Virus record (IMG/VR): IMGVR_UViG_3300010885_006095
Coordinates: 1-36,712 of that record
Direction: 5' to 3' (one strand)
Length of the DNA stretch: 36,712 nt
Source of the DNA: a virus
Both the position numbers and the translations under genes were made by a program. Each line of letters opens with the position of its first letter. The first letter of the stretch is position 1. Positions 2,858 to 36,712 of the stretch are shown piece after piece. Below the pieces are notes generated by a model, which saw nothing but the letters and a program-made list of their open reading frames with translations, made no database searches and was not told where the DNA came from.

Positions 2858-3180
2858 AGGGCCGACCACACCCTAAGGAACGTCCACGAGCAACAGCCAA
2901 GAACGGTAAAGCGTTCATGTACACACCAACAAAAACTGTTGATGCTGAAAAGAAAATTGCTGAAGCATGGGACGGACCTGTGTTCCACGGTGAAGTAGCA
3001 GTACACATTGTCATAGACAGTGAAGGTACTGCGGTCATCGTAGAACGTGTGGACATTGAAACTAAATCATCTTTGCGTGGCGACATAGATAACTATGTCA
3101 AAACGGTTCTTGATGGTTTGAATGGTGTAGCATGGTTGGACGACAAACAAGTCGTAAAGATTGTGGCGATAAAAGCATGA
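2767..3180 (+). CDS. rusA-like: RusA-like Holliday junction resolvase
   Basis: This 137-residue protein has the RusA signature: an N-terminal EGRPHPKERPRAT segment (conserved G.P.PK.RPR), then RGDIDNYVKTVLDGLNG with D106 and D108, and AWLDDKQV with D125/D126, giving the acidic residues that bind magnesium. RusA enzymes cut four-way junctions symmetrically and in phages help resolve replication or recombination intermediates before packaging. The start is uncertain. ATG 2767 has GGAGG about 12 nt upstream but adds ~27 residues not usual in the family and overlaps the primase gene by 91 nt; no other ATG, GTG or TTG lies nearer the conserved core. The stop overlaps the next start (ATGA). Confidence 0.85.
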   Translation: MGKIHDEGRSGDTGTSEVTGTSVRSHSIYIEGRPHPKERPRATAKNGKAFMYTPTKTVDAEKKIAEAWDGPVFHGEVAVHIVIDSEGTAVIVERVDIETKSSLRGDIDNYVKTVLDGLNGVAWLDDKQVVKIVAIKA

Positions 3181-3641: not shown

Positions 3642-4404
3642 TCTATTTGCCTCCACACCTATCTCTGATGGTGATTGGTTATTGCAGTTAGGAGAAGCAC
3701 CCGACCTGCAAGACACTGATCATATCCAAGTAGTCATAGAAGCAATTGAGCAACTGTCACCGCAATCAAAGTTCTGCATTGAAGCAATCTTTTATGAACG
3801 TATTCCATACAGTGAACTTGGTGGACGCCTCGGCGTGAGTAAACCTCACGCTTGGCGTCTGTCCAACAAAGCAATGGAAGAATTACGCAATCTACTATCA
3901 ACCAACAAAGTCCTAAACGAAAGGTACGACATGTTTTCTAATTGGAACGAAGCAGTGTCATCAGTAGTACTAAACTTTCATAACGTTTCAGATAAACGCA
4001 AAGTTGAAGTTAGCGAACTAGACAAATATATTTACAACATGTGTCAATACTCTGAAGATCGTGTTTATGAAGAAGCAACATTTATGGACATCAACGATCT
4101 TGGTCGCCTGGCAACGTCACATCTTAAATCAATTGGTGCGTGGGACTTACATGCCACCATTGATCTACTTGTCAAAAAGCAACACGACTACGGTCACAAC
4201 AACATTTTGGGATTCGGTTTGCTTGGATTATGTATCCGCATCTCAGATAAGATTGCACGACTGGTTTCGTTAGAGAAGCGTGGCTCAAAGCCACACAACG
4301 AATCAGTCATTGACACATGGACTGACATTGTCGGCTATGCATCAATTGCGAAGATGTTAGAAAACGGAACATTCAAACTTGAACTGGAGAACACCAATGA
4401 CTGA
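3625..4404 (+). CDS. sigma-region-4-like HTH fused to Nmad1/DUF1599 domain
   Basis: ATG 3625 gives 259 residues. Residues ~38-95 (EQLSPQSKF...IPYSELGGRLGVSKPHAWRLSNKAMEEL) read as a sigma-70 region 4 helix-turn-helix: a first helix, the SELGGRLGVS turn and an AWRLSNKA recognition helix. Residues ~170-245 carry KKQHDYGHNNILGFGLLGLCIRISDKIARL followed by ESVIDTWTDIVGYASIA. This pattern (DYG..N, R..DK..R, ES..DT..D..GYA) is that of DUF1599/Nmad1, a family tied to phage nucleotide or base modification. No sigma region 2 is present, so it is unlikely to be a complete sigma factor. It could be a DNA-guided modification-linked regulator, or the HTH may serve as a transcription adaptor. It overlaps both neighbours. 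Confidence 0.7.
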   Translation: MTYNLDLFASTPISDGDWLLQLGEAPDLQDTDHIQVVIEAIEQLSPQSKFCIEAIFYERIPYSELGGRLGVSKPHAWRLSNKAMEELRNLLSTNKVLNERYDMFSNWNEAVSSVVLNFHNVSDKRKVEVSELDKYIYNMCQYSEDRVYEEATFMDINDLGRLATSHLKSIGAWDLHATIDLLVKKQHDYGHNNILGFGLLGLCIRISDKIARLVSLEKRGSKPHNESVIDTWTDIVGYASIAKMLENGTFKLELENTND

Positions 4405-20450: not shown

Positions 20451-22060
20451 CAGGCACGCACCTTTCGAGGATTATATTTGTAGGTAATAGAGTTAATACC
20501 CCAAGGTTTCCCACCCTCACCTTGGATTTTTAATTGAACACTACGAGCAAGTCCTAAAGACTTGCCTACAGCAAAAGCAGCACCAGTAGCACTAGAACCC
20601 CAGTTAGCCTGATTCCAACCAGGGTTAGCATCAGGTTCAGTAGCAGTAGCATTCCAAATAAGAGAAGAACCCGAAGCATCTAAAGCCAAAACATATAACT
20701 TGGCAACAATAGACTCTTCCCAATCATGAAAAACTGTGAGACTCAAATTAGTAGCAACACTCGTCTGCTTCACAACAAAGTCAGGTCGTCTCCACATTTT
20801 ACGATTAGAAACATTATTAGCATCCTGCCAGCCAGTCGTAAAATATGATGAAAAGTTTGCAGCACCCGTACCCACATCATCCTGATACACGCTTAACTGA
20901 TCAACTTTCATCACATAAGCATTAGAAGGATGGCAAACCAAATTATAAGTCGTCCCAGTTGACGTAACAAAATCGCAGCCACTACCAAAACCTTTCGCAT
21001 CAGAAGTCTGATATTTAGTCCACCCACCGCCCTGTTTCAAAGAAGGATCGTAAACATAACAAGCAGAAGCTTTAGTACTAGAACCCAAAGGCAACGAAAG
21101 CCAAATCCTATGATTCACACTCGCAACACGGATCTCATCCTGAGCAATATTATTAACTTGCCCAGTCTGAATCAAAGGACGAATAGCAGTAAACAAATCA
21201 CCAAACTGTTGACCATCATATTTAAACAGTCCATCAGGCCAAGAAAAAAAATACACTGCAGTCTCAGTAGCCACAACACTCAAAGGATTAACAGCACCAA
21301 CTTCACTCGTCAAGTTAATAACTTGGAACGTGTCAGTTGAATAACCCATAATAGCAAACACGGCACGCTTCTTGAACACAAGAAGGTTGCCGTTAAAAGG
21401 AATGATCGCAGTGATCCCCGAACCACCCTCAACAATATCAATATAATCATTCGTAGCCCAAGACTCACGATTAATAGGATGCGAGAAACGAATACGGTTA
21501 GGGTAATCAGTAGCACCCTCAGTCACATAAGCACACCACAAACGATCAACATGCGACGTAATATAACGACACTTAGGAGCAAATCCAGTAACAGGAGAAG
21601 CATAATTATCGGCGTACCCAGTACTAGCATCAGTCAACGCAGTAGCAGTCGCACCATTCCACTTATAACTAACGCCACCAGTACCAATATAAACAAAACT
21701 TTCAGTACTAGCAGACCAGGCAGTAAACGACGCACCAAAAGGTGCAGTCGTAGTAATACCCATAGAAGTAAACGCAGTTGTCGTCGCATAATACACAGCA
21801 CTATTAGTAGACAACAAAACTTGTGGCGCAGTATTATCCCAAGCGTATAACGACTTAGGGGTAAACGAACCATTAGCAATGGTCCCAATAGCAGACGTAT
21901 TCAACTTAGTAATACCACCACGCATAGTCAAACCACCACGTGGATCAATATCCACGTTCAACAAATCAGGTGATTCAGTACGACCTAACTGGAAAGGATC
22001 AGCGCGAAGGTTAAGCCCACCAGTAAAATCGTCTGTACGAAGCAACGACAAACGACTCAT
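20450..22060 (-). CDS. tail nozzle / stabilisation protein (T7 gp12-type)
   Basis: The 536-residue protein begins with FTGGLNLRADPFQLGRTESPDLLNVDIDPRGGLTMRGG, an opening typical of podoviral tail-nozzle proteins. It continues with a series of short beta strands and blades (VYYATTT, YKWNGA, KCRYITSHVDRLW, RIRFSHP, NLLVFKKRAVFAIMG, AVYFFSWPDGLFKYDG) that suggest a beta-propeller. This class closes the short tail below the adaptor and binds fibres. No tape measure or tail-tube gene is nearby, supporting a podovirus-like tail. The next gene's stop overlaps its start. Confidence 0.75.
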   Translation of the reverse strand: MSRLSLLRTDDFTGGLNLRADPFQLGRTESPDLLNVDIDPRGGLTMRGGITKLNTSAIGTIANGSFTPKSLYAWDNTAPQVLLSTNSAVYYATTTAFTSMGITTTAPFGASFTAWSASTESFVYIGTGGVSYKWNGATATALTDASTGYADNYASPVTGFAPKCRYITSHVDRLWCAYVTEGATDYPNRIRFSHPINRESWATNDYIDIVEGGSGITAIIPFNGNLLVFKKRAVFAIMGYSTDTFQVINLTSEVGAVNPLSVVATETAVYFFSWPDGLFKYDGQQFGDLFTAIRPLIQTGQVNNIAQDEIRVASVNHRIWLSLPLGSSTKASACYVYDPSLKQGGGWTKYQTSDAKGFGSGCDFVTSTGTTYNLVCHPSNAYVMKVDQLSVYQDDVGTGAANFSSYFTTGWQDANNVSNRKMWRRPDFVVKQTSVATNLSLTVFHDWEESIVAKLYVLALDASGSSLIWNATATEPDANPGWNQANWGSSATGAAFAVGKSLGLARSVQLKIQGEGGKPWGINSITYKYNPRKVRA

Positions 22061-30826: not shown

Positions 30827-31092
30827 AAAAGAAAGCACCCAAAATACCACCCCTAGTAGAAATCTTTTGGGAAGATCACTACAGCATGGGTGACGACTGG
30901 CACGAACCAGGAGCCAAACATGAACCATGCGTACTATCAGCAGTAGGCTACCTTGTCGCTGAGAACGAGCAGTACTATTGGGTCGCTTGTACGTACGAAC
31001 TAGCTACAGGAAACTACTCTGCGGGGACAGCAGTTCTCAAGAACTGCGTCACCTACTTCTGTGAGCATACTTCAGCCCGCAAAATACATTAA
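30820..31092 (+). CDS. conserved hypothetical protein (90 aa)
   Basis: Begins at ATG 30820, overlapping the previous gene by 7 nt. The N-terminus is basic (MVKKKAPKIPP), then PLVEIFWEDHYSMGDDW and VGYLVAENEQYYWVACTYELATGNYSAG, short strands that suggest a small beta domain; the WxDxxSxGDDW and VGYLV pattern is common in a class of small phage proteins. No catalytic motif is evident. It is the last gene before a 373-nt gap. Confidence 0.6.
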   Translation: MVKKKAPKIPPLVEIFWEDHYSMGDDWHEPGAKHEPCVLSAVGYLVAENEQYYWVACTYELATGNYSAGTAVLKNCVTYFCEHTSARKIH

Positions 31093-31145
31093 AACATATT
31101 CCTATCTGCGACGACAGTAATACAAAGTATCACAAATAGTCCTCT

Positions 31146-31159
31146 GTGACTATAGTCAC
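31146..31159. other. 14-bp perfect palindrome
   Basis: GTGACTATAGTCAC equals its own reverse complement over 14 bases. It is a single copy in the intergenic gap and could be a binding site for a dimeric protein; no matching protein is identified. Confidence 0.4.
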
Positions 31160-31426
31160 CCCAACATATAGAATCATCACGATTTGGCTACACCCCAATG
31201 TATCTTTTCTCTCGTTTTGGCGTACGGGCACCTATGCTGGGGGGTGCATGATGACACGCAACGACATGAATATGCCCATATAACAGTTCCTGCTCAACAC
31301 CCTGTTTTCTCGTGCCCGCTAGGGTGTAACAGATGTGCAATACAACACCAGTGCGCTCGCAAGAGTAGACATCAAGTGTTCGTGTTGCATGGTTGGTATC
31401 TGTTGGTTAGCAAATCACAAACCCAT

Positions 31427-31446
31427 TTTGGAACGACCGTTCCAAA
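31427..31446. repeat. TTGGAAC palindrome/hairpin, copy 1
   Basis: TTTGGAAC-GACC-GTTCCAAA, an 8-bp perfect stem with a 4-nt loop. It ends 19 nt before the ATG of the 31466 gene and just before its ribosome site, where a bound regulator or stem could influence expression. Same core as copies at 31914, 32644 and 33565. Confidence 0.7.
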
Positions 31447-31465
31447 TTACAAAGGAGATAACAAA

Positions 31466-31912
31466 ATGAGTAAGAACATCAACTGCGATTTCGCATCGCA
31501 CGAATTGTTAATCACCAAGGGCGAACAGCAATCGCTCAAGGGCTGGTGGAAAGCAGGCGACGAATGTCGCAAGTCTTTCCGCAAGGAAAACGGTGCACCG
31601 AATGTTTCGTTGTACGCAAAAGCAGCTAGCAAGGTTGCTAGCGACAATACTGAGGACACGATCCGCAAGTATGTCGGTTACATCATCAAGGCTCAGGACG
31701 CTGGTTACAAGGTCACTGAGTTTAAGGGCATCATGCATTTGCGTGAGACCATGGCAGGTCAGGGCAACCGTGCTGTTGTTGCAAAGAAAGAACCGAAGTC
31801 AATTCGCTTCAGCGCACAACGCAAGGAGGAACTTGCTTCCATCTTGCGCCGTGCCAAGGTCAGCGATGCTGAGATCGCTTCCTTGTTTGCTTTCGGCACA
31901 CTTGGCAAGTGA
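31466..31912 (+). CDS. hypothetical protein flanked by palindromes (148 aa)
   Basis: ATG 31466 has AAAGGAG 9 nt upstream. The 148-residue product is basic and helical: LITKGEQQSLKGWWKAGDECRKSFRKENGAPNVS, a long Lys/Ala middle, and RRAKVSDAEIASLFAFGTLGK at the end. A DNA- or RNA-binding role is conceivable from its charge. The TTGGAAC palindrome lies directly before its ribosome site and again one base after its TGA, so the gene could regulate these elements or be a cassette bounded by them. I recognise no family. Confidence 0.6.
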   Translation: MSKNINCDFASHELLITKGEQQSLKGWWKAGDECRKSFRKENGAPNVSLYAKAASKVASDNTEDTIRKYVGYIIKAQDAGYKVTEFKGIMHLRETMAGQGNRAVVAKKEPKSIRFSAQRKEELASILRRAKVSDAEIASLFAFGTLGK

Positions 31913-31913
31913 T

Positions 31914-31931
31914 TTGGAACGCTCGTTCCAA
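31914..31931. repeat. TTGGAAC palindrome/hairpin, copy 2
   Basis: TTGGAAC-GCTC-GTTCCAA, a 7-bp stem with a GCTC loop, starting one base after the TGA of the 31466 gene and just upstream of a hammerhead-like core. Confidence 0.7.
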
Positions 31932-31943
31932 TTTCAAATAGTT

Positions 31944-31990
31944 GAAACGCCGTGAGGCGTATAGCAGAGTTCGCCTACTGCTACTGATGA
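31944..31990 (+). ncRNA. hammerhead-like core with weak stem II
   Basis: GAAA (31944-31947), stem III CGCC-GTGA-GGCG (31948-31959), UA (31960-31961), stem I TAGCAG / CTGCTA (31962-31967 and 31978-31983) and CTGATGA (31984-31990) occur in hammerhead order and spacing. Stem I differs in sequence from the 32.2-kb copy yet still pairs. The bases that should form stem II (U31943 against U31991, then only two adjacent pairs) do not pair well, so it is probably inactive, degenerate or a relative. Expected cut, if active, is after A31961. Confidence 0.55.
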
Positions 31991-32017
31991 TACAGGCGTA
32001 ACCGAAAGGAAATCATA

Positions 32018-32224
32018 ATGAAGCGTGTTGATTGGCACTTAGTGAATAACAAAGGTGTCCGCACTTTGTGGGCATTTGAGGTTGGTGATGATGGCAAGGT
32101 TAATCCTTGGATTTATCAGAGCAACATTAAGGTTGATGTTCGTCGTGCTGACATCTTTCTTATTCATGAAAGCGAATACTTTGAGCCTGGCAATGTTCCT
32201 TGTGGCTCAATTATTATTGACTGA
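32018..32224 (+). CDS. small hypothetical protein (68 aa)
   Basis: ATG 32018 has GAAAGG 9 nt upstream in a leader repeated before several neighbours. The 68-residue product starts MKRVDWHLVNNKGVRTLWAFEV, with aromatic-rich strands (NPWIYQSNIKVDVRRADIFLIHESEYF) and a hydrophobic end (GSIIID). It looks like a small beta-rich globular protein; no family recognised. A hammerhead-like element lies between it and the upstream gene, and the complete ribozyme begins at its stop codon (TGA 32222-32224), so its mRNA 3' end may be set by self-cleavage. Confidence 0.6.
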   Translation: MKRVDWHLVNNKGVRTLWAFEVGDDGKVNPWIYQSNIKVDVRRADIFLIHESEYFEPGNVPCGSIIID

Positions 32225-32278
32225 CGAAACGCCTTCGGGCGTAATCCGCAGGTGTGCTCTGCGGGTCTGATGAGTCAG
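32221..32278 (+). ncRNA. hammerhead ribozyme, stem II open (type II-like)
   Basis: All core pieces are present in order: CTGAC (32221-32225), GAAA (32226-32229), stem III CGCC-TTCG-GGCG (32230-32241), U32242-A32243, stem I ATCCGCAG / CTGCGGGT (32244-32251 and 32259-32266) around a 7-nt loop, CTGATGA (32267-32273), then GTCAG (32274-32278). Stem I pairs 8 bp (one G-U), stem III 4 bp plus the A15.1-U16.1 pair, and stem II 5 perfect bp with G-C next to the core. Cleavage is expected after A32243, 19 nt past the stop of the preceding gene and 55 nt before the next ATG. The RNA fold was read by eye. Confidence 0.85.
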
Positions 32279-32298
32279 CACATTGAAAGGAAATCATA

Positions 32299-32643
32299 AT
32301 GAATATCATTGCAATGTTGTTCGCAATGTCGTTGCCTTTGGGCTTCGCCATTGCCTTGATCACTGAAAGGCATCGTGTTAAGAGCGACGCATTTCAGGTT
32401 CGCACTATGCGTTACACCCGCATTGAGCACACGCTTGACGACGATGATTTTTGGGACGACGATATATGCCTGTTTCATTGGTCTTTTGATTGCTCTTGTT
32501 TTGAGCATATTGCGGTGACAGATGTGCATGATCCGTATGAGATTGTGTTGCCGTTTCACGAACGCATTGAACCACCCGATTGGGTTGATGGTTGGGTTGC
32601 ACCGCAAGTGAAGTGGATTGTGAAGTCCAAAGCCAATAAGTAA
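32299..32643 (+). CDS. small secreted or membrane-anchored protein (114 aa)
   Basis: The N-terminus MNIIAMLFAMSLPLGFAIALITE is a membrane segment or uncleaved signal; the rest is hydrophilic with an unusually acidic loop (HTLDDDDFWDDDICLFHW), a cysteine pair (FDCSCFEH) and Pro/Trp-rich strands (ERIEPPDWVDGWVAPQVKW). The exposed part may act outside the cytoplasmic membrane. The leader GAAAGG precedes ATG 32299, 55 nt after the predicted ribozyme cut. Its TAA is directly followed by TTGGAAC palindrome copy 3. Function unknown. Confidence 0.6.
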   Translation: MNIIAMLFAMSLPLGFAIALITERHRVKSDAFQVRTMRYTRIEHTLDDDDFWDDDICLFHWSFDCSCFEHIAVTDVHDPYEIVLPFHERIEPPDWVDGWVAPQVKWIVKSKANK

Positions 32644-32661
32644 TTGGAACGCTCGTTCCAA
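32644..32661. repeat. TTGGAAC palindrome/hairpin, copy 3
   Basis: TTGGAAC-GCTC-GTTCCAA, identical to copy 2, starting at the base after the TAA stop of the preceding gene. Confidence 0.75.
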
Positions 32662-32663
32662 AA

Positions 32664-32710
32664 TGCGTAGCCATGCGTGGCTTGTTCGGGTTCAATTCCC
32701 GACTACGCAC
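32664..32710 (+). ncRNA. tRNA-like acceptor/T-arm structure (short)
   Basis: TGCGTAG (32664-32670) pairs with CTACGCA (32703-32709) over 7 bp. Directly before the 3' strand is a T-arm-like hairpin TCGGG-TTCAATT-CCCGA (32686-32702), with 5 bp and the 7-nt loop of canonical T-loop pattern (TTCRANY). Between them is only CCA-TGCG-TGG (32671-32680) and a short linker, so D and anticodon arms are missing. The unpaired 3' base is C and no CCA follows. It is not a normal tRNA; a tRNA remnant or tRNA-mimicking RNA is inferred. Confidence 0.55.
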
Positions 32711-32711
32711 T

Positions 32712-32734
32712 ACCGAATACAATCCCGTATCGGT
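32712..32734 (+). ncRNA. bulged hairpin upstream of 32755 gene
   Basis: ACCG (32712-32715), bulged A, ATAC (32717-32720), loop AATCCC, GTAT (32727-32730), CGGT (32731-32734). A sibling with compensatory changes lies at 33648-33669. It ends 20 nt before ATG 32755, just upstream of the ribosome site. Confidence 0.6.
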
Positions 32735-32754
32735 TACATGAAAGGTAAATCATA

Positions 32755-32994
32755 ATGGATATCAACCAAGAGGAACTCTACGATGTCGCAGGTTATCTGC
32801 TTCATCTTGAGTCTGTCGTCGCACAGCGGGAGATAGATACCGCAAGTGTGATTGCAGGATTACAGCAGGCGAGAGATATTTTGTCTGTTGTTTTGACGAA
32901 CAATCAGGCTCGTGCTCTTGAGCGTCGTGCAAAGTTGGCTGAGTTGCAAGCCAAGTATCCTTCTCGCCCCATTATCACATTGGAGGACAAGTGA
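32755..32994 (+). CDS. small helical protein (79 aa)
   Basis: The product is almost fully helical: EELYDVAGYLLHLESVVAQREIDTASVIAGLQQARDILSVVL, followed by a charged ARALERRAKLAELQAK segment and a short PSRPIITLEDK tail. Heptad-like spacing suggests a coiled coil. The start ATG 32755 follows GAAAGG with a leader shared by neighbours. Its TGA overlaps the ATG of a tiny membrane protein gene (TGATG), so the two are translated together. Function unknown. Confidence 0.6.
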   Translation: MDINQEELYDVAGYLLHLESVVAQREIDTASVIAGLQQARDILSVVLTNNQARALERRAKLAELQAKYPSRPIITLEDK

Positions 32995-33164
32995 TGTTTC
33001 CGTACATTCTTTTACTTCTAGCGTCATTGCTTTTTGTTGGCTGTGTCGTGTTTGCCTATGAGATGGGCAAGAAAGTTGGCGAGTACGAAACTCGTCGCAA
33101 TTACCGTTTCCCGAACTATCGGGTTGTTCCACATAAAACCAAAACGAAAGGAAAAAAGCGATGA
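32994..33164 (+). CDS. small membrane protein (56 aa)
   Basis: ATG 32994 overlaps the previous TGA, with GGAGG 8-13 nt upstream. The first ~22 residues (MFPYILLLLASLLFVGCVVFAY) are a membrane segment; the rest (EMGKKVGEYETRRNYRFPNYRVVPHKTKTKGKKR) is strongly basic and should face the cytoplasm. The Gly-Cys near the end of the hydrophobic segment is not a clear lipobox. Its TGA overlaps the next ATG (ATGA). The tight overlaps on both sides support a real gene; function unknown, though a membrane lysis or exclusion role would fit its size. Confidence 0.65.
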   Translation: MFPYILLLLASLLFVGCVVFAYEMGKKVGEYETRRNYRFPNYRVVPHKTKTKGKKR

Positions 33165-33562
33165 GAATTGCTTTAGAAAACAAAGACCCAATCCAACTTG
33201 AGGTGCTAGCACCACTCATTCACGATGTGTACATCGTGTCTCGTGACGCACCGACTTATCTAGGTGGAAGCATGGTCACCATGTACATCACTATCCTCAA
33301 AGATAGTTTCGGCAATACAGAGTTCGGTGTGTTGCCACACACATACGAAATCCTTTTTGTCTCTGACGACGACAAGATGATTTGGTTTGGTCAGTGTGAG
33401 GAACACATCAAGTTAATGGGTGACGCAGTGAATGTTGCGTTGGCTATCAACAATGCTGGTGATCGCAATGTGCGTATGCGTGTTGTGACTGAATCAGGTA
33501 CTGATCATAGTCATATGTATTCAATCTATGAGTACATGGCAGAGCGAGGTTTCCCGTTCTGA
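33161..33562 (+). CDS. hypothetical protein (133 aa)
   Basis: Starts at ATG 33161 (ATGA with the preceding gene), with GAAAGG upstream. The product has strands EVLAPLIHDVYIVSRD, MVTMYITILKD, YEILFVSDDDKMIWFG and MRVVTESGT, and helices EEHIKLMGDAVNVALAINNAG and YEYMAERGF, so an alpha/beta fold is likely. No catalytic motif or signal peptide is obvious. It precedes the fourth TTGGAAC palindrome and is encoded with small membrane and helical proteins; I cannot assign a role. Confidence 0.6.
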   Translation: MRIALENKDPIQLEVLAPLIHDVYIVSRDAPTYLGGSMVTMYITILKDSFGNTEFGVLPHTYEILFVSDDDKMIWFGQCEEHIKLMGDAVNVALAINNAGDRNVRMRVVTESGTDHSHMYSIYEYMAERGFPF

Positions 33563-33564
33563 GA

Positions 33565-33582
33565 TTGGAACGCTAGTTCCAA
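33565..33582. repeat. TTGGAAC palindrome/hairpin, copy 4
   Basis: TTGGAAC-GCTA-GTTCCAA. As DNA palindrome it has one central mismatch, but as an RNA hairpin the stem is a perfect 7 bp with the change in the loop. It starts 2 nt after the TGA of the 33161 gene. Confidence 0.7.
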
Positions 33583-33584
33583 AA

Positions 33585-33645
33585 TGCCTACCCATGCGTG
33601 GCACCACATTCGTGTGTGTGTTGAGTTCGCAACTCAAGTAGTGCA
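33585..33645 (+). ncRNA. multibranch RNA-like element, sibling of 32664-32710
   Basis: TGCCTAC (33585-33591) pairs with GTAG-t-GCA (33638-33645), 7 bp with one bulged T. Inside lie CCA-TGCG-TGG (33592-33601, identical to the 32.67-kb element), CACA-TTCG-TGTG (33605-33616) and TTGAGTT-CGC-AACTCAA (33621-33637), which can also be drawn as a 5-bp stem with a 7-nt TTCGCAA loop directly before the closing strand, the T-arm position. Like its sibling it follows a TTGGAAC palindrome and precedes the bulged hairpin. Confidence 0.5.
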
Positions 33646-33647
33646 CT

Positions 33648-33669
33648 GCCGAACACATTCCGTGTCGGC
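33648..33669 (+). ncRNA. bulged hairpin upstream of amidoligase gene
   Basis: GCCG (33648-33651), bulged A, ACAC (33653-33656), loop ATTCC, GTGT (33662-33665), CGGC (33666-33669). Relative to 32712-32734 two base pairs have changed on both sides, preserving the stem. It ends 19 nt before ATG 33689. Confidence 0.6.
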
Positions 33670-33688
33670 TATCACAAAGGAGGGCGTA

Positions 33689-34945
33689 ATGCCTGAATCA
33701 AATAACATCAACGAAGTTCCCGATGATGACGAGGAGGAAATCCAACTCTGTTACTTCACGGGTGTCGTACTTACAGACGAAACCCTTGAAAACGAGTTAG
33801 TTACATTCCGCCGTGATGCGGCTATCACATGGGATAGTTCAACTATGAACTTTGCATATCGTCATGAACAGGAGTATGTCAATTACACCAACGAGTTAGT
33901 GAATCATCAGTATTTGGTTTACCTCTGCGATGATTGCGACAGCTACTTTCATTATGCGTTGTACAACACGGACACTGATCGTTGTACTAGTTGCAATGAC
34001 ACTTACAGCGAGTGTCGTGATTGCGGTACGGAAGTGCATGATGACGAGTCGTATCGTGATGACGATGGTGATCCGTATTGCCAGGATTGCTGGTCAGAGT
34101 CTGACTACAATCCCGACAACCAACGATTAACAACAATTCAGTCGTACTCGTATCGCCCGACTCCTATCTTTGGTTGGGTTGTTGAGTCACAGTTAATTCG
34201 TGGCTTAGGTGTGCCTCGTGCAATTCAAAGCGAACCAATGTTTGGTTTTGAGTTGGAGACAAATGCGAGAGATCGCAGTACCATCAACGATGCAAGTGCG
34301 TTCTTGTTGGGTGAGTCACCAGAGGAATACTTGTACAACAAAGAGGACGGTTCAATCTCAGGGTTTGAGATTGTTACGCACCCATTCACTTTGGAGGCAC
34401 ACAAGATGTTGCTACCTCGTCAAGCAATTACCAAGTTGTCATCGCAGTATTCGTTGTCATCATGGTCATCGGTGAATGGCACAGGGGCTGGGCTTCATGT
34501 GCATATCAGCAAGAAATCTTTTGCTGGTAGTGCTCATCAGTTCCGTTTCCAAATGTTTCACTATCGGAACAGTGACTTCATTAAGAAGTTCGCTGGGCGT
34601 GACAGTGATCGTTGGGCGTCGTTCCGTCGCACCACTGACCGCAATGACTATGGCTACGATGACATGGTTGAAATCTGCAAGGGCAATCGCTCGCAGAACA
34701 ACCGTTACTCGGCTCTGAACTTTCAGAACCGTAACACGATTGAGTTGCGTTACTTCCGTGGTTCACTCAAGCCTGAGACTGTGTTGGGTGTTCTTGAGTT
34801 CTGCCATAGCGTTCACGCATACACCAAGTTGCTGACAGCCAAGGAAGTCATTGACGGTTGCTTGCAGTGGGGGTCATACAAGATGTGGCTTGCCGATCAG
34901 AACTACGAGTACCTCCCACAAGTCCTCGCAACTCGTTGCGTGTGA
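33689..34945 (+). CDS. amidoligase-family enzyme with N-terminal zinc ribbons
   Basis: ATG 33689 has AAAGGAGGG upstream; a longer frame from 33584 is noncoding by context. Residues 1-140 are acidic and carry four CxxC pairs (80/83, 99/102, 109/112, 131/134), enough for two zinc ribbons. From ~185 on it matches the amidoligase family (glutamine-synthetase-like fold): FGFELE (E188, E190), EDGSISGFEIVTHPF (D220, E227), GLHVHIS (H270, H272), and NRNTIELRYFRGSL (E352, R354). Such enzymes use ATP to join a carboxylate to an amine. The next gene encodes a glutamine amidotransferase; this pairing is known for the family. The substrate is unknown; cell-wall peptides or a protein target are the usual suggestions. 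It lies behind a structured leader. Confidence 0.8.
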   Translation: MPESNNINEVPDDDEEEIQLCYFTGVVLTDETLENELVTFRRDAAITWDSSTMNFAYRHEQEYVNYTNELVNHQYLVYLCDDCDSYFHYALYNTDTDRCTSCNDTYSECRDCGTEVHDDESYRDDDGDPYCQDCWSESDYNPDNQRLTTIQSYSYRPTPIFGWVVESQLIRGLGVPRAIQSEPMFGFELETNARDRSTINDASAFLLGESPEEYLYNKEDGSISGFEIVTHPFTLEAHKMLLPRQAITKLSSQYSLSSWSSVNGTGAGLHVHISKKSFAGSAHQFRFQMFHYRNSDFIKKFAGRDSDRWASFRRTTDRNDYGYDDMVEICKGNRSQNNRYSALNFQNRNTIELRYFRGSLKPETVLGVLEFCHSVHAYTKLLTAKEVIDGCLQWGSYKMWLADQNYEYLPQVLATRCV

Positions 34946-35004
34946 CATATCCTTATCCCTACAACAAATAAAAACCAACAACAAAACAGAAAGGACACAT
35001 CAAA

Positions 35005-35958
35005 ATGTGTTTGTTAATATTAGCCAAGGGCGGTTCAACGCCTTCCAAGAAATCACTACGCCGAGCAGGCAACGCTAATCCCGATGGGTTCGGCTTCGCC
35101 ATTGTCGGCAACAACAAGATTCACACTTACAAGAGTATGGATCTTGAGGACACCATCGGAAACTTTTACGATATGCGTGATCGTTTTCCTAAAGGCAATG
35201 CAATCTTTCACTTGCGTATCACTACGCATGGTACGACAGATATTAATAATTGTCACCCATTTCAAGTCAATGATGATTTGGTGATGGGTCACAACGGTAT
35301 GTTGCCTATCAAAGCAGAGAACGGCAAGAGCGATACAAACTTGTTTGCTACCGAATGGTTGCCTGAGTTTGACATGGCTGATTTGCTTGACACGCAGGCT
35401 GGTGTTGATGAACTCAGCAAGTTCGCTAGCGGTAGCAAACTTGCTTTCCTCAATACGAGTTCACATCTTGCCAAGCCGTTCTACATCATCAACGAACACC
35501 TGGGTCATTGGAAAGACGGTGTGTGGTACAGCAACTCGTCATACAAAGAGACGGTGTGGTATCCATCGTACTCGTATGGTTCGTATGGCAGTTCATACAC
35601 GCCTACAAAGACGACATCTATGAGTGACTACGAGAAGTACAACATTCGTAGCCATTGGGACGATGAGGATTTGTTTGCTGAGGACATTGCTGACGACAAT
35701 GATTTCCTGTGTGACACTTACATTGCTCGCACATGGAAAGAAGGCGATCTCATGTACGATCACATTGAAGGTGCATGGGTTCACCCCGATGACGCAGATG
35801 ATATCTCTGATCTTGTTCAATGGGAATGTCACACCTGCCACGAGCAAGTGATCTTTGATTTGCTCAATGACAGTGTTGATCTATGTTCCGAATGTGGAAC
35901 CTGCTACTTTTGTGACAACGACACTGATGCATGCAATTGCTACATCGCTGAGAAATAA
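35005..35958 (+). CDS. class II glutamine amidotransferase with C-terminal zinc ribbon
   Basis: Translation begins ATG-TGT at 35005, so removal of Met exposes Cys2, the nucleophile of Ntn-type glutamine amidotransferases. Other motifs fit: NPDGFGFA (25-32), FHLRITTHGTT with R71, CHPF (83-86), GHNG (95-98) and KSDTNLF with D110. This domain releases ammonia from glutamine or hydrolyses a gamma-glutamyl bond. The C-terminal ~50 residues have CHTC, CSEC, CYFC and CNC, likely zinc sites, echoing the ribbons of the upstream amidoligase. A central Tyr/Ser/Gly-rich linker (YPSYSYGSYGSSYTP) joins the parts. It probably works with the amidoligase. AAAGGACACATC precedes the start. Confidence 0.8.
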   Translation: MCLLILAKGGSTPSKKSLRRAGNANPDGFGFAIVGNNKIHTYKSMDLEDTIGNFYDMRDRFPKGNAIFHLRITTHGTTDINNCHPFQVNDDLVMGHNGMLPIKAENGKSDTNLFATEWLPEFDMADLLDTQAGVDELSKFASGSKLAFLNTSSHLAKPFYIINEHLGHWKDGVWYSNSSYKETVWYPSYSYGSYGSSYTPTKTTSMSDYEKYNIRSHWDDEDLFAEDIADDNDFLCDTYIARTWKEGDLMYDHIEGAWVHPDDADDISDLVQWECHTCHEQVIFDLLNDSVDLCSECGTCYFCDNDTDACNCYIAEK

Positions 35959-35988
35959 CAACCAACAACAAATAGAAAAGGAAAAATC

Positions 35989-36597
35989 ATGACTAACTAC
36001 AATCCACTTCCATACGAATGTGTCCCTGTTCCTGGCTCTGAGCCAACTACTCCTGATATTTGGGGGGTATATCCTGAGAACGCAATGTTGCGTGCGCAGA
36101 TAGGAAAGAACGAGGAGTATCAAGATTTCTTGATGAAAGAAATGGCAAATCAACTGCATGAGATCAGGACTCTCAATGACCGCATTGGTTTCAATGATGT
36201 CATGCACAAAAATCAATTTCATGCCATCAACACTTTCTTCAAGTGGATCATGGAACACTATGAGATTGACAAGCAAGACGACATTTGGGAAATGCTTGAC
36301 GGAATGTTCCAAGACGGTCTGCTCACTGACCCTCGTAAGCGCACATACCGTATTCGTGTCACTAAGAAAGAGATTGACGAATACGATGTTGAGTTACCTT
36401 GGGATATGACAGATGAAAGAGCGCATGACATCGTGCGTTCAGCAATCATCGCTGGCGAGTTCACTCGCAACAATTTCCAAGATGTTGAGTATCTCGGGGA
36501 GACACCTGTAGATGTCGTTGCACATAGCCCTCTTGAAACAGAGTGGAATGTGTGGAACAGAGGACAAGTCAATCAACTTGACTCAAGTCCGTGGTGA
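35989..36597 (+). CDS. hypothetical protein (202 aa)
   Basis: ATG 35989 has AAAAGGAAAAATC upstream, 30 nt after the amidotransferase gene. The N-terminus is Pro-rich (NPLPYECVPVPGSEPTTPD), then a charged helical region (MANQLHEIRTLNDRIGF, KWIMEHYEIDKQDDIWEMLDGMF) and a mixed C-terminal part (YRIRVTKKEIDEYDVELPWDM, EDVEYLG-like strands). The helical part could be a coiled coil. No enzyme motif seen. It shares its operon with the amidoligase pair and may supply substrate binding or be unrelated. Confidence 0.6.
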   Translation: MTNYNPLPYECVPVPGSEPTTPDIWGVYPENAMLRAQIGKNEEYQDFLMKEMANQLHEIRTLNDRIGFNDVMHKNQFHAINTFFKWIMEHYEIDKQDDIWEMLDGMFQDGLLTDPRKRTYRIRVTKKEIDEYDVELPWDMTDERAHDIVRSAIIAGEFTRNNFQDVEYLGETPVDVVAHSPLETEWNVWNRGQVNQLDSSPW

Positions 36598-36600
36598 TCT

Positions 36601-36712
36601 ATGTCAAAGACAAAAGATTGGTGGTACGACCACTACATGGACAAGCACAACGAGTATAATTTATCTAACGCCACGAACGGCGAATCAAATAAGGAGACAA
36701 CTATGTCTGAAA
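36601..36712 (+). CDS. hypothetical protein, 3' partial, two possible in-frame starts
   Basis: ATG 36601 follows the previous TGA by 3 nt and opens a frame to the window end. The first ~34 residues are rich in Trp, Asp, Tyr and Asn (KTKDWWYDHYMDKHNEYN). A second in-frame ATG at 36703 has AAGGAG (36691-36696) at ideal spacing, so the segment could be a short leader with a downstream gene or one gene with two starts. The product continues outside. Confidence 0.45.
   Translation, partial: MSKTKDWWYDHYMDKHNEYNLSNATNGESNKETTMSE

Follow-up and report, generated by a model that had tools for sequence, protein, structure and literature searches.

The window (the whole 36.7-kb linear virus record analyzed here, with terminase, DnaB, primase and RusA genes) contains two type II hammerheads, HHR1 and HHR2, which bracket one short gene. 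We put at about 0.7 the probability that they cut the polycistronic early mRNA of this podovirus-like phage co-transcriptionally, which would give one-gene messages with defined ends. Neither the class of ribozyme nor its setting is new; what the locus adds as a lead is that hammerheads seem interchangeable with another structured RNA, element X, which occupies both hammerhead slots in the close relative L044/L045.

By its terminase, the nearest named relative is the podovirus MW202803.1 (54% identity), in which a single hammerhead (38.8 bits) separates the first and the second of the rightward early genes. Among named phages, no match was found for HHR1, gene B or the stretch 31000–36700, and matches of the window to named phages were confined to the terminase, the amidoligase-like gene and 28 nt within X. 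A scan of 31300–33200 for sigma-70-like promoters retrieved none, which is consistent with a single transcript, the consensus used being that of E. coli, from which that of the host may differ. The features of this region are:

31466–31912, plus strand: 148-aa gene upstream of HHR1; orthologue at 1832–2278 in L045
31914–31931, plus strand: 18-nt palindrome TTGGAACGCTCGTTCCAA, with more copies at 31428, 32644 and 33565
31941–31998, plus strand: HHR1, a type II hammerhead absent from the earlier note on this DNA, found with a descriptor and an independent model
31961/31962, plus strand: predicted HHR1 cleavage bond, after A31961, which would leave a 56-nt leader before ATG 32018
32018–32224, plus strand: gene A, 68 aa, between HHR1 and HHR2, with its TGA stop codon overlapping stem II of HHR2
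32221–32282, plus strand: HHR2, a type II hammerhead, from its core, stems, fold and scores with Rfam and phage-derived models
32243/32244, plus strand: predicted HHR2 cleavage bond, after A32243, from the hammerhead consensus
32299–32643, plus strand: gene B, 114 aa
32664–32734, plus strand: element X, copy 1, before gene C
32755–32994, plus strand: gene C, 79 aa
33585–33676, plus strand: element X, copy 2, divergent (72.9 bits with the X model), before the amidoligase-like gene at 33689–34945

The 18-nt palindromes that follow genes are mostly constant within one phage (TTGGAACGCTCGTTCCAA) and occur also in L003, L022 and L031; they differ among relatives (GTGGACAATAGTTGTCCAC; GTGACTTAATTAAGTCAC) at equal positions, in the manner of operator-like or hairpin elements whose arms are specific to the lineage. 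The amidoligase-like gene (PF12224) is 30% identical to gp108 of mycobacteriophage LittleLaf, annotated as a glutamine amidotransferase, and is followed by a class II glutamine amidotransferase-like gene (35005–35958) that falls just under the Pfam cut-off.

HHR2 is composed of the following parts:

32223–32225/32274–32276: stem II, extendable to 32221–32225/32274–32278 (CTGAC 32221–32225; GTCAG 32274–32278)
32226–32229: GAAA
32230–32241: stem III (CGCC-UUCG-GGCG), 4 bp (32230–32233/32238–32241) with a UUCG loop
32229/32242: A15.1–U16.1, followed by H17 (A32243)
32244–32251/32259–32266: stem I (ATCCGCAG/CTGCGGGT), 8 bp including one G-U
32267–32273: CUGAUGA
32253–32258 with 32277–32282: pseudoknot between loop I (TGTGCT) and the 3′ tail (AGCACA), 6 bp, perfect complementarity

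The full core is present (CUGANGA and GAAA, A15.1–U16.1 and a non-G H17), with a C-G pair 10.1–11.1 at the base of stem II; stems I (8 bp) and III (4 bp) are closed by loops and stem II (3–5 bp) is open. The minimum-energy fold of 32218–32280 is the three-stem hammerhead itself (−25.4 kcal/mol, z −2.25). If the pseudoknot forms, stem II has 3 bp (GAC/GTC) instead of 5, and 3 bp is the common length among relatives. Over the whole RF02276 (Hammerhead_II) model HHR2 scored 32.2 bits (E-value of 1.7e-4 in an 821-nt stretch and 1.8e-6 in the whole record); a default Rfam scan reports nothing because this is under the gathering score of 37, which is a database cut-off and not a biological criterion. 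With a covariance model free of any HHR2 copy, the score was 50.6 bits (E 3.8e-12). HHR2 is thus supported as a genuine-looking type II hammerhead, for which self-cutting is predicted.

The earlier note had described a complete hammerhead at 32221–32278 in a phage operon, and its sequence is there base for base; the type, the core, the predicted cleavage position and the operon context are borne out, with strong detection by the independent phage-derived model, and recomputation again placed the bond 32243/32244 at 19 nt beyond TGA 32222–32224, with a 55-nt leader before ATG 32299. The Infernal search that the note proposed gave a mixed answer, negative with the Rfam cut-off and positive only with the phage-derived model. 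Its placement of the TGA within stem II applies to the 5-bp stem; with the pseudoknot, only the G and the A remain inside. Both the second hammerhead and the pseudoknot are additional to that description.

HHR1 lies 282 bases upstream of HHR2, and its parts are:

31941–31942/31992–31993: stem II, 2 bp, with a U10.1–U11.1 mismatch (31991/31943)
31944–31947: GAAA
31948–31951/31956–31959: stem III, 4 bp, followed by U16.1 (31960) and H17 (A31961)
31962–31967/31978–31983: stem I, 6 bp
31984–31990: CUGAUGA
31972–31976 with 31994–31998: pseudoknot CGCCT with AGGCG, 5 bp

Here too we found the core CUGANGA and GAAA, A15.1–U16.1, a non-G H17, an open stem II and a pseudoknot of loop I with the tail. 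HHR1 scored 62.5 bits (E 1.8e-15) with the independent phage-derived model and is unlisted by Rfam even at E 10; the Rfam cut-off can overlook phage hammerheads of the HHR1 and HHR2 kind. The U10.1–U11.1 mismatch occurs also in L020 and L038. Folded in its window context, HHR1 has its energy minimum in a competing hairpin in which GAAA is hidden (−19.7 kcal/mol, vs. −11.3 for the nested hammerhead with the pseudoknot left out). The mismatch, with only two further stem II pairs, and this modeled hairpin would count against cutting by HHR1. A hairpin TTTCAAATAGTTGAAA at 31930–31947, which would hide the HHR1 GAAA, is present in the window, L017 and L037 and absent from L003, L031 and L042.

A pattern scan of viral contigs gathered 65 distinct relatives. 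The pattern prescribed 21 bases within the core and stem III and left stems I and II, loops and tail free, so that conservation of those 21 bases is no evidence; all the relatives recovered keep the core, part of which the pattern had demanded. The same pattern gave 14 matches in GTDB genomes, about the number expected by chance on our own estimate, and just 2 of the 14 form a hammerhead; the hammerhead signal is therefore viral. In the fetched loci the type II descriptor identified 83 complete motifs, against none in Markov-shuffled sequence of the same total length, and a covariance model built on 30 hammerheads from viral contigs other than the window, with no HHR1 or HHR2 copies among them, had exactly two matches in the window, HHR1 and HHR2. 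In an alignment of 27 sequences with a 19-pair structure, 88.9% of the cells were paired (32–40% with slid partners), 110 cells were changed on both sides (19–26 in the slid controls) and 14 of the 19 pairs were compensated; for the pseudoknot helix, 69% were paired and compensation was seen in 4 of 6 pairs. Hammerheads detected with the 30-sequence model are clustered on one strand in the richest contigs (13 in the 77359-b contig L001 and 11 in the 52628-b contig L026). L004 and L021 also have several each, some with long stem III insertions.

The type II form, the pseudoknot, the U10.1–U11.1 mismatch and the flanking of variable prophage genes all appear in Perreault et al. (2011; PMC3088659), as do mutational results in which the loop I pseudoknot was critical for a type II hammerhead, the cutting in vitro of ~2 kb polycistronic transcripts by hammerheads flanking prophage genes, the cutting in E. 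coli by an Agrobacterium tumefaciens set and, likewise, the inactivity in vitro of 4 of 18 consensus hammerheads. Like the RF02276 hammerheads of that study, the window copies have an open and short stem II, the core, GAAA, A15.1–U16.1, H17, the pseudoknot of loop I with the tail that most type II hammerheads possess, a bacterial or phage setting and non-constant flanking genes, although both miss the Rfam gathering score. The Agrobacterium prophage ardA cluster of the same study, for which cutting was demonstrated both in vitro and in E. coli, resembles the window in that several hammerheads bracket small phage genes. The bracketed genes are different, those of the window being of no known function. 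In HHphage of haloviruses HF1/HF2, a hammerhead likewise lies just upstream of a start codon (13 nt) in the early operon of a phage, and a 5′ end was mapped at most 3 nt from the cut (Perreault et al., 2011); this hammerhead differs in having a core variant, in belonging to an archaeal virus and in being a single copy. Neither tight stop-hammerhead-start spacing, here counted over 65 phage copies, nor replacement by X was found in the consulted sections of that paper.

This spacing is a property of the group: 52 of the 65 phage hammerheads end 19–33 nt ahead of a start codon (10% for positions drawn at random from their loci), and in 34 of the 65 a stop codon lies upstream at no more than 8 nt from the core GAAA (2% at random), so that the overlap with a stop codon is a group habit and no peculiarity of HHR2. 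The usual packing in the group is stop, hammerhead, Shine-Dalgarno, start. Under the cutting model, both hammerheads would fold, with three stems and the pseudoknot, as the polymerase passes, and would cut just past each stop codon, HHR1 after A31961 and HHR2 after A32243. Upstream messages would retain their stop codon, hence needing no ribosome rescue, and would end in the UUCG-capped stem III hairpin with a 2′,3′-cyclic phosphate; downstream messages would start with a 5′-OH and stem I, in a structured leader of ~55 nt ending in the Shine-Dalgarno and AUG. The likely effect would be the conversion of the operon into one-gene messages with protected ends and with separate stability and dose for each small gene.

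The same packing could instead reflect a switch coupled to translation, in which the ribosome terminating at the TGA would cover stems II and III of HHR2 and block cutting, and a ribosome bound to the Shine-Dalgarno would compete with the pseudoknot, so that well-translated mRNA would remain polycistronic and poorly translated mRNA would be cut. The stop codon does overlap HHR2 stem II, with its counterpart in the 34 of 65, and only 16 nt separate the end of the pseudoknot strand (32282) from AUG 32299. The link between termination and folding that the earlier note had suggested is geometrically plausible, and its geometry is common in the group. However, the same geometry would arise simply from squeezing a motif of ~60 nt between two closely spaced genes, and the overlap is missing in about half of the relatives; we consider such a switch unlikely.

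The small gene between the two hammerheads is replaced among close relatives. HHR1 and HHR2 from L003, L017, L031 and L042 are identical to the window copies over 57 nt, and this identity is not solely an effect of the scan pattern, because L003, L017 and L031 were recovered also through their proteins alone. Between them lies gene A in the window and L042, a gene for MTKDIRF... in L017 and L031, and one for MTRIFEL... in L003; all of these stop at the same TGA inside HHR2, and the small genes in the slot following HHR1 (or X) showed no homology to each other above shuffled scores. The flanks also change: gene B is preceded by HHR2 in the window, L003 and L017 and by X in L044/L045, while gene C is preceded by X in the window, by HHR1 in L022/L032 (where only HHR1 was found, bracketing nothing) and by HHR2 in L031 and L042. 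Identical borders around one of several unrelated genes, with changing flanks, might suggest that hammerheads are chiefly homology carriers or selfish leaders that allow swaps of accessory genes, with RNA cutting being secondary. Nevertheless, the hammerhead sequences of unrelated phages have diverged with compensation of paired bases, which requires selection on the RNA fold, and the 11–13 different hammerheads in single contigs share no sequence; on balance, we find this explanation improbable.

The bracketing of one short gene would also permit the segment with gene A to be released by both cuts and then ligated or circularized, and MW202803.1 encodes an RNA ligase (PF09414). This is very improbable, since none of the window proteins that were scanned matched an RNA ligase, L022/L032 have HHR1 with nothing bracketed, and circular or spliced products were sought and not seen in the 2011 study (PMC3088659). 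The ligase gene of MW202803.1 lies at 20569–21669 in L051 (1.1e-15). It is just as improbable that the motifs are inactive relics or chance look-alikes, a reading that the low Rfam score of HHR2 might favor, given the full core and pseudoknot of both copies, the independent model scores and the absence of motifs from shuffled controls. The cutting model also has against it the HHR2 score under the Rfam gathering value and the dispensability of hammerheads in this lineage, because L044/L045, which were selected through their proteins, yielded none.

Element X is an undescribed, covarying structured leader RNA that shares intercistronic slots with hammerheads. A model of X found four copies in L044/L045 (in L045, at 2301–2379, 2601–2676, 3057–3133 and 4299–4375); another copy lies on the minus strand of L031 (3161–3251). 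The L045 copies at 2301 and 2601 fill both slots held by HHR1 and HHR2 in the window, between the same 148-residue upstream gene and the same gene B. Copy 1 of the window combines an acceptor-like stem of 7 bp with a short hairpin, a hairpin resembling a T-arm (TCGGG-TTCAATT-CCCGA) and, after it, one more hairpin; among eight copies, 6 of the 25 predicted pairs were compensated, including pairs in the acceptor-like stem and the T-arm stem. We found no paper describing this element in a literature search.

X is not supported as a tRNA or a known ribozyme by either Rfam or ARAGORN: ARAGORN found no tRNA gene, copy 1 scored 14.4 bits against the Rfam tRNA model, with a cut-off of 29, and no known Rfam family was matched. 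A leader peptide (MRSHAW...) was also dismissed, because the copies vary in reading frame and start codon while their stems covary, and an attP site is unlikely because there are up to four copies per contig, each ahead of a gene. The minimal substrate of RNase P is an acceptor stem stacked on a T-arm. X is similar to tRNA-like elements of the RNase P type in having a 6–7 bp acceptor-like stem stacked directly on a 5-bp T-arm, with the loop TTCAATT in several copies, but it has neither a D arm nor an anticodon arm and other copies have the non-canonical loop TTCGCAA. Because of the resemblance to the minimal substrate, and as a guess by analogy, X might be an RNase P-type substrate, some copies of which lack the canonical T-loop.

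The exchange of X and hammerheads raises the possibility, which we advance tentatively, that early phage operons have standard slots for RNA processing, filled interchangeably by a hammerhead or by X, the latter cut by the host RNase P or acting as a novel ribozyme. The locus offers a direct comparison, as close relatives with the same gene order fill some slots with hammerheads and other slots with a structured RNA unrelated to them, and this bears on the role of phage hammerheads, a question dating from 2011. If hammerhead and X were to yield the same messenger ends, the function would be mRNA processing; exchange in orthologous slots, if true, would show that phage hammerheads serve the processing of mRNA or the formation of leaders gene by gene, and X would be a new RNA element of phages.

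Structures reminiscent of X occur in other phages. An X-like element with a canonical T-loop (29.1 bits, E 4.5e-5) is found on the minus strand of L028 (8829–8900), upstream of a gene with a GTG start; L028 is a different phage with its own hammerhead at ~1.6 kb from this element. Mycobacteriophages SWU1 (L078, ~534–628) and Twister (L079, 552–632) contain unannotated tRNA-like structures with weak X-model scores (11–14 bits), located 30–50 nt ahead of the first gene in the matched early stretch; both have the acceptor GGGTAG/CTACCC, the T-arm loop TTCGATT and an arm with a GGAATG loop.
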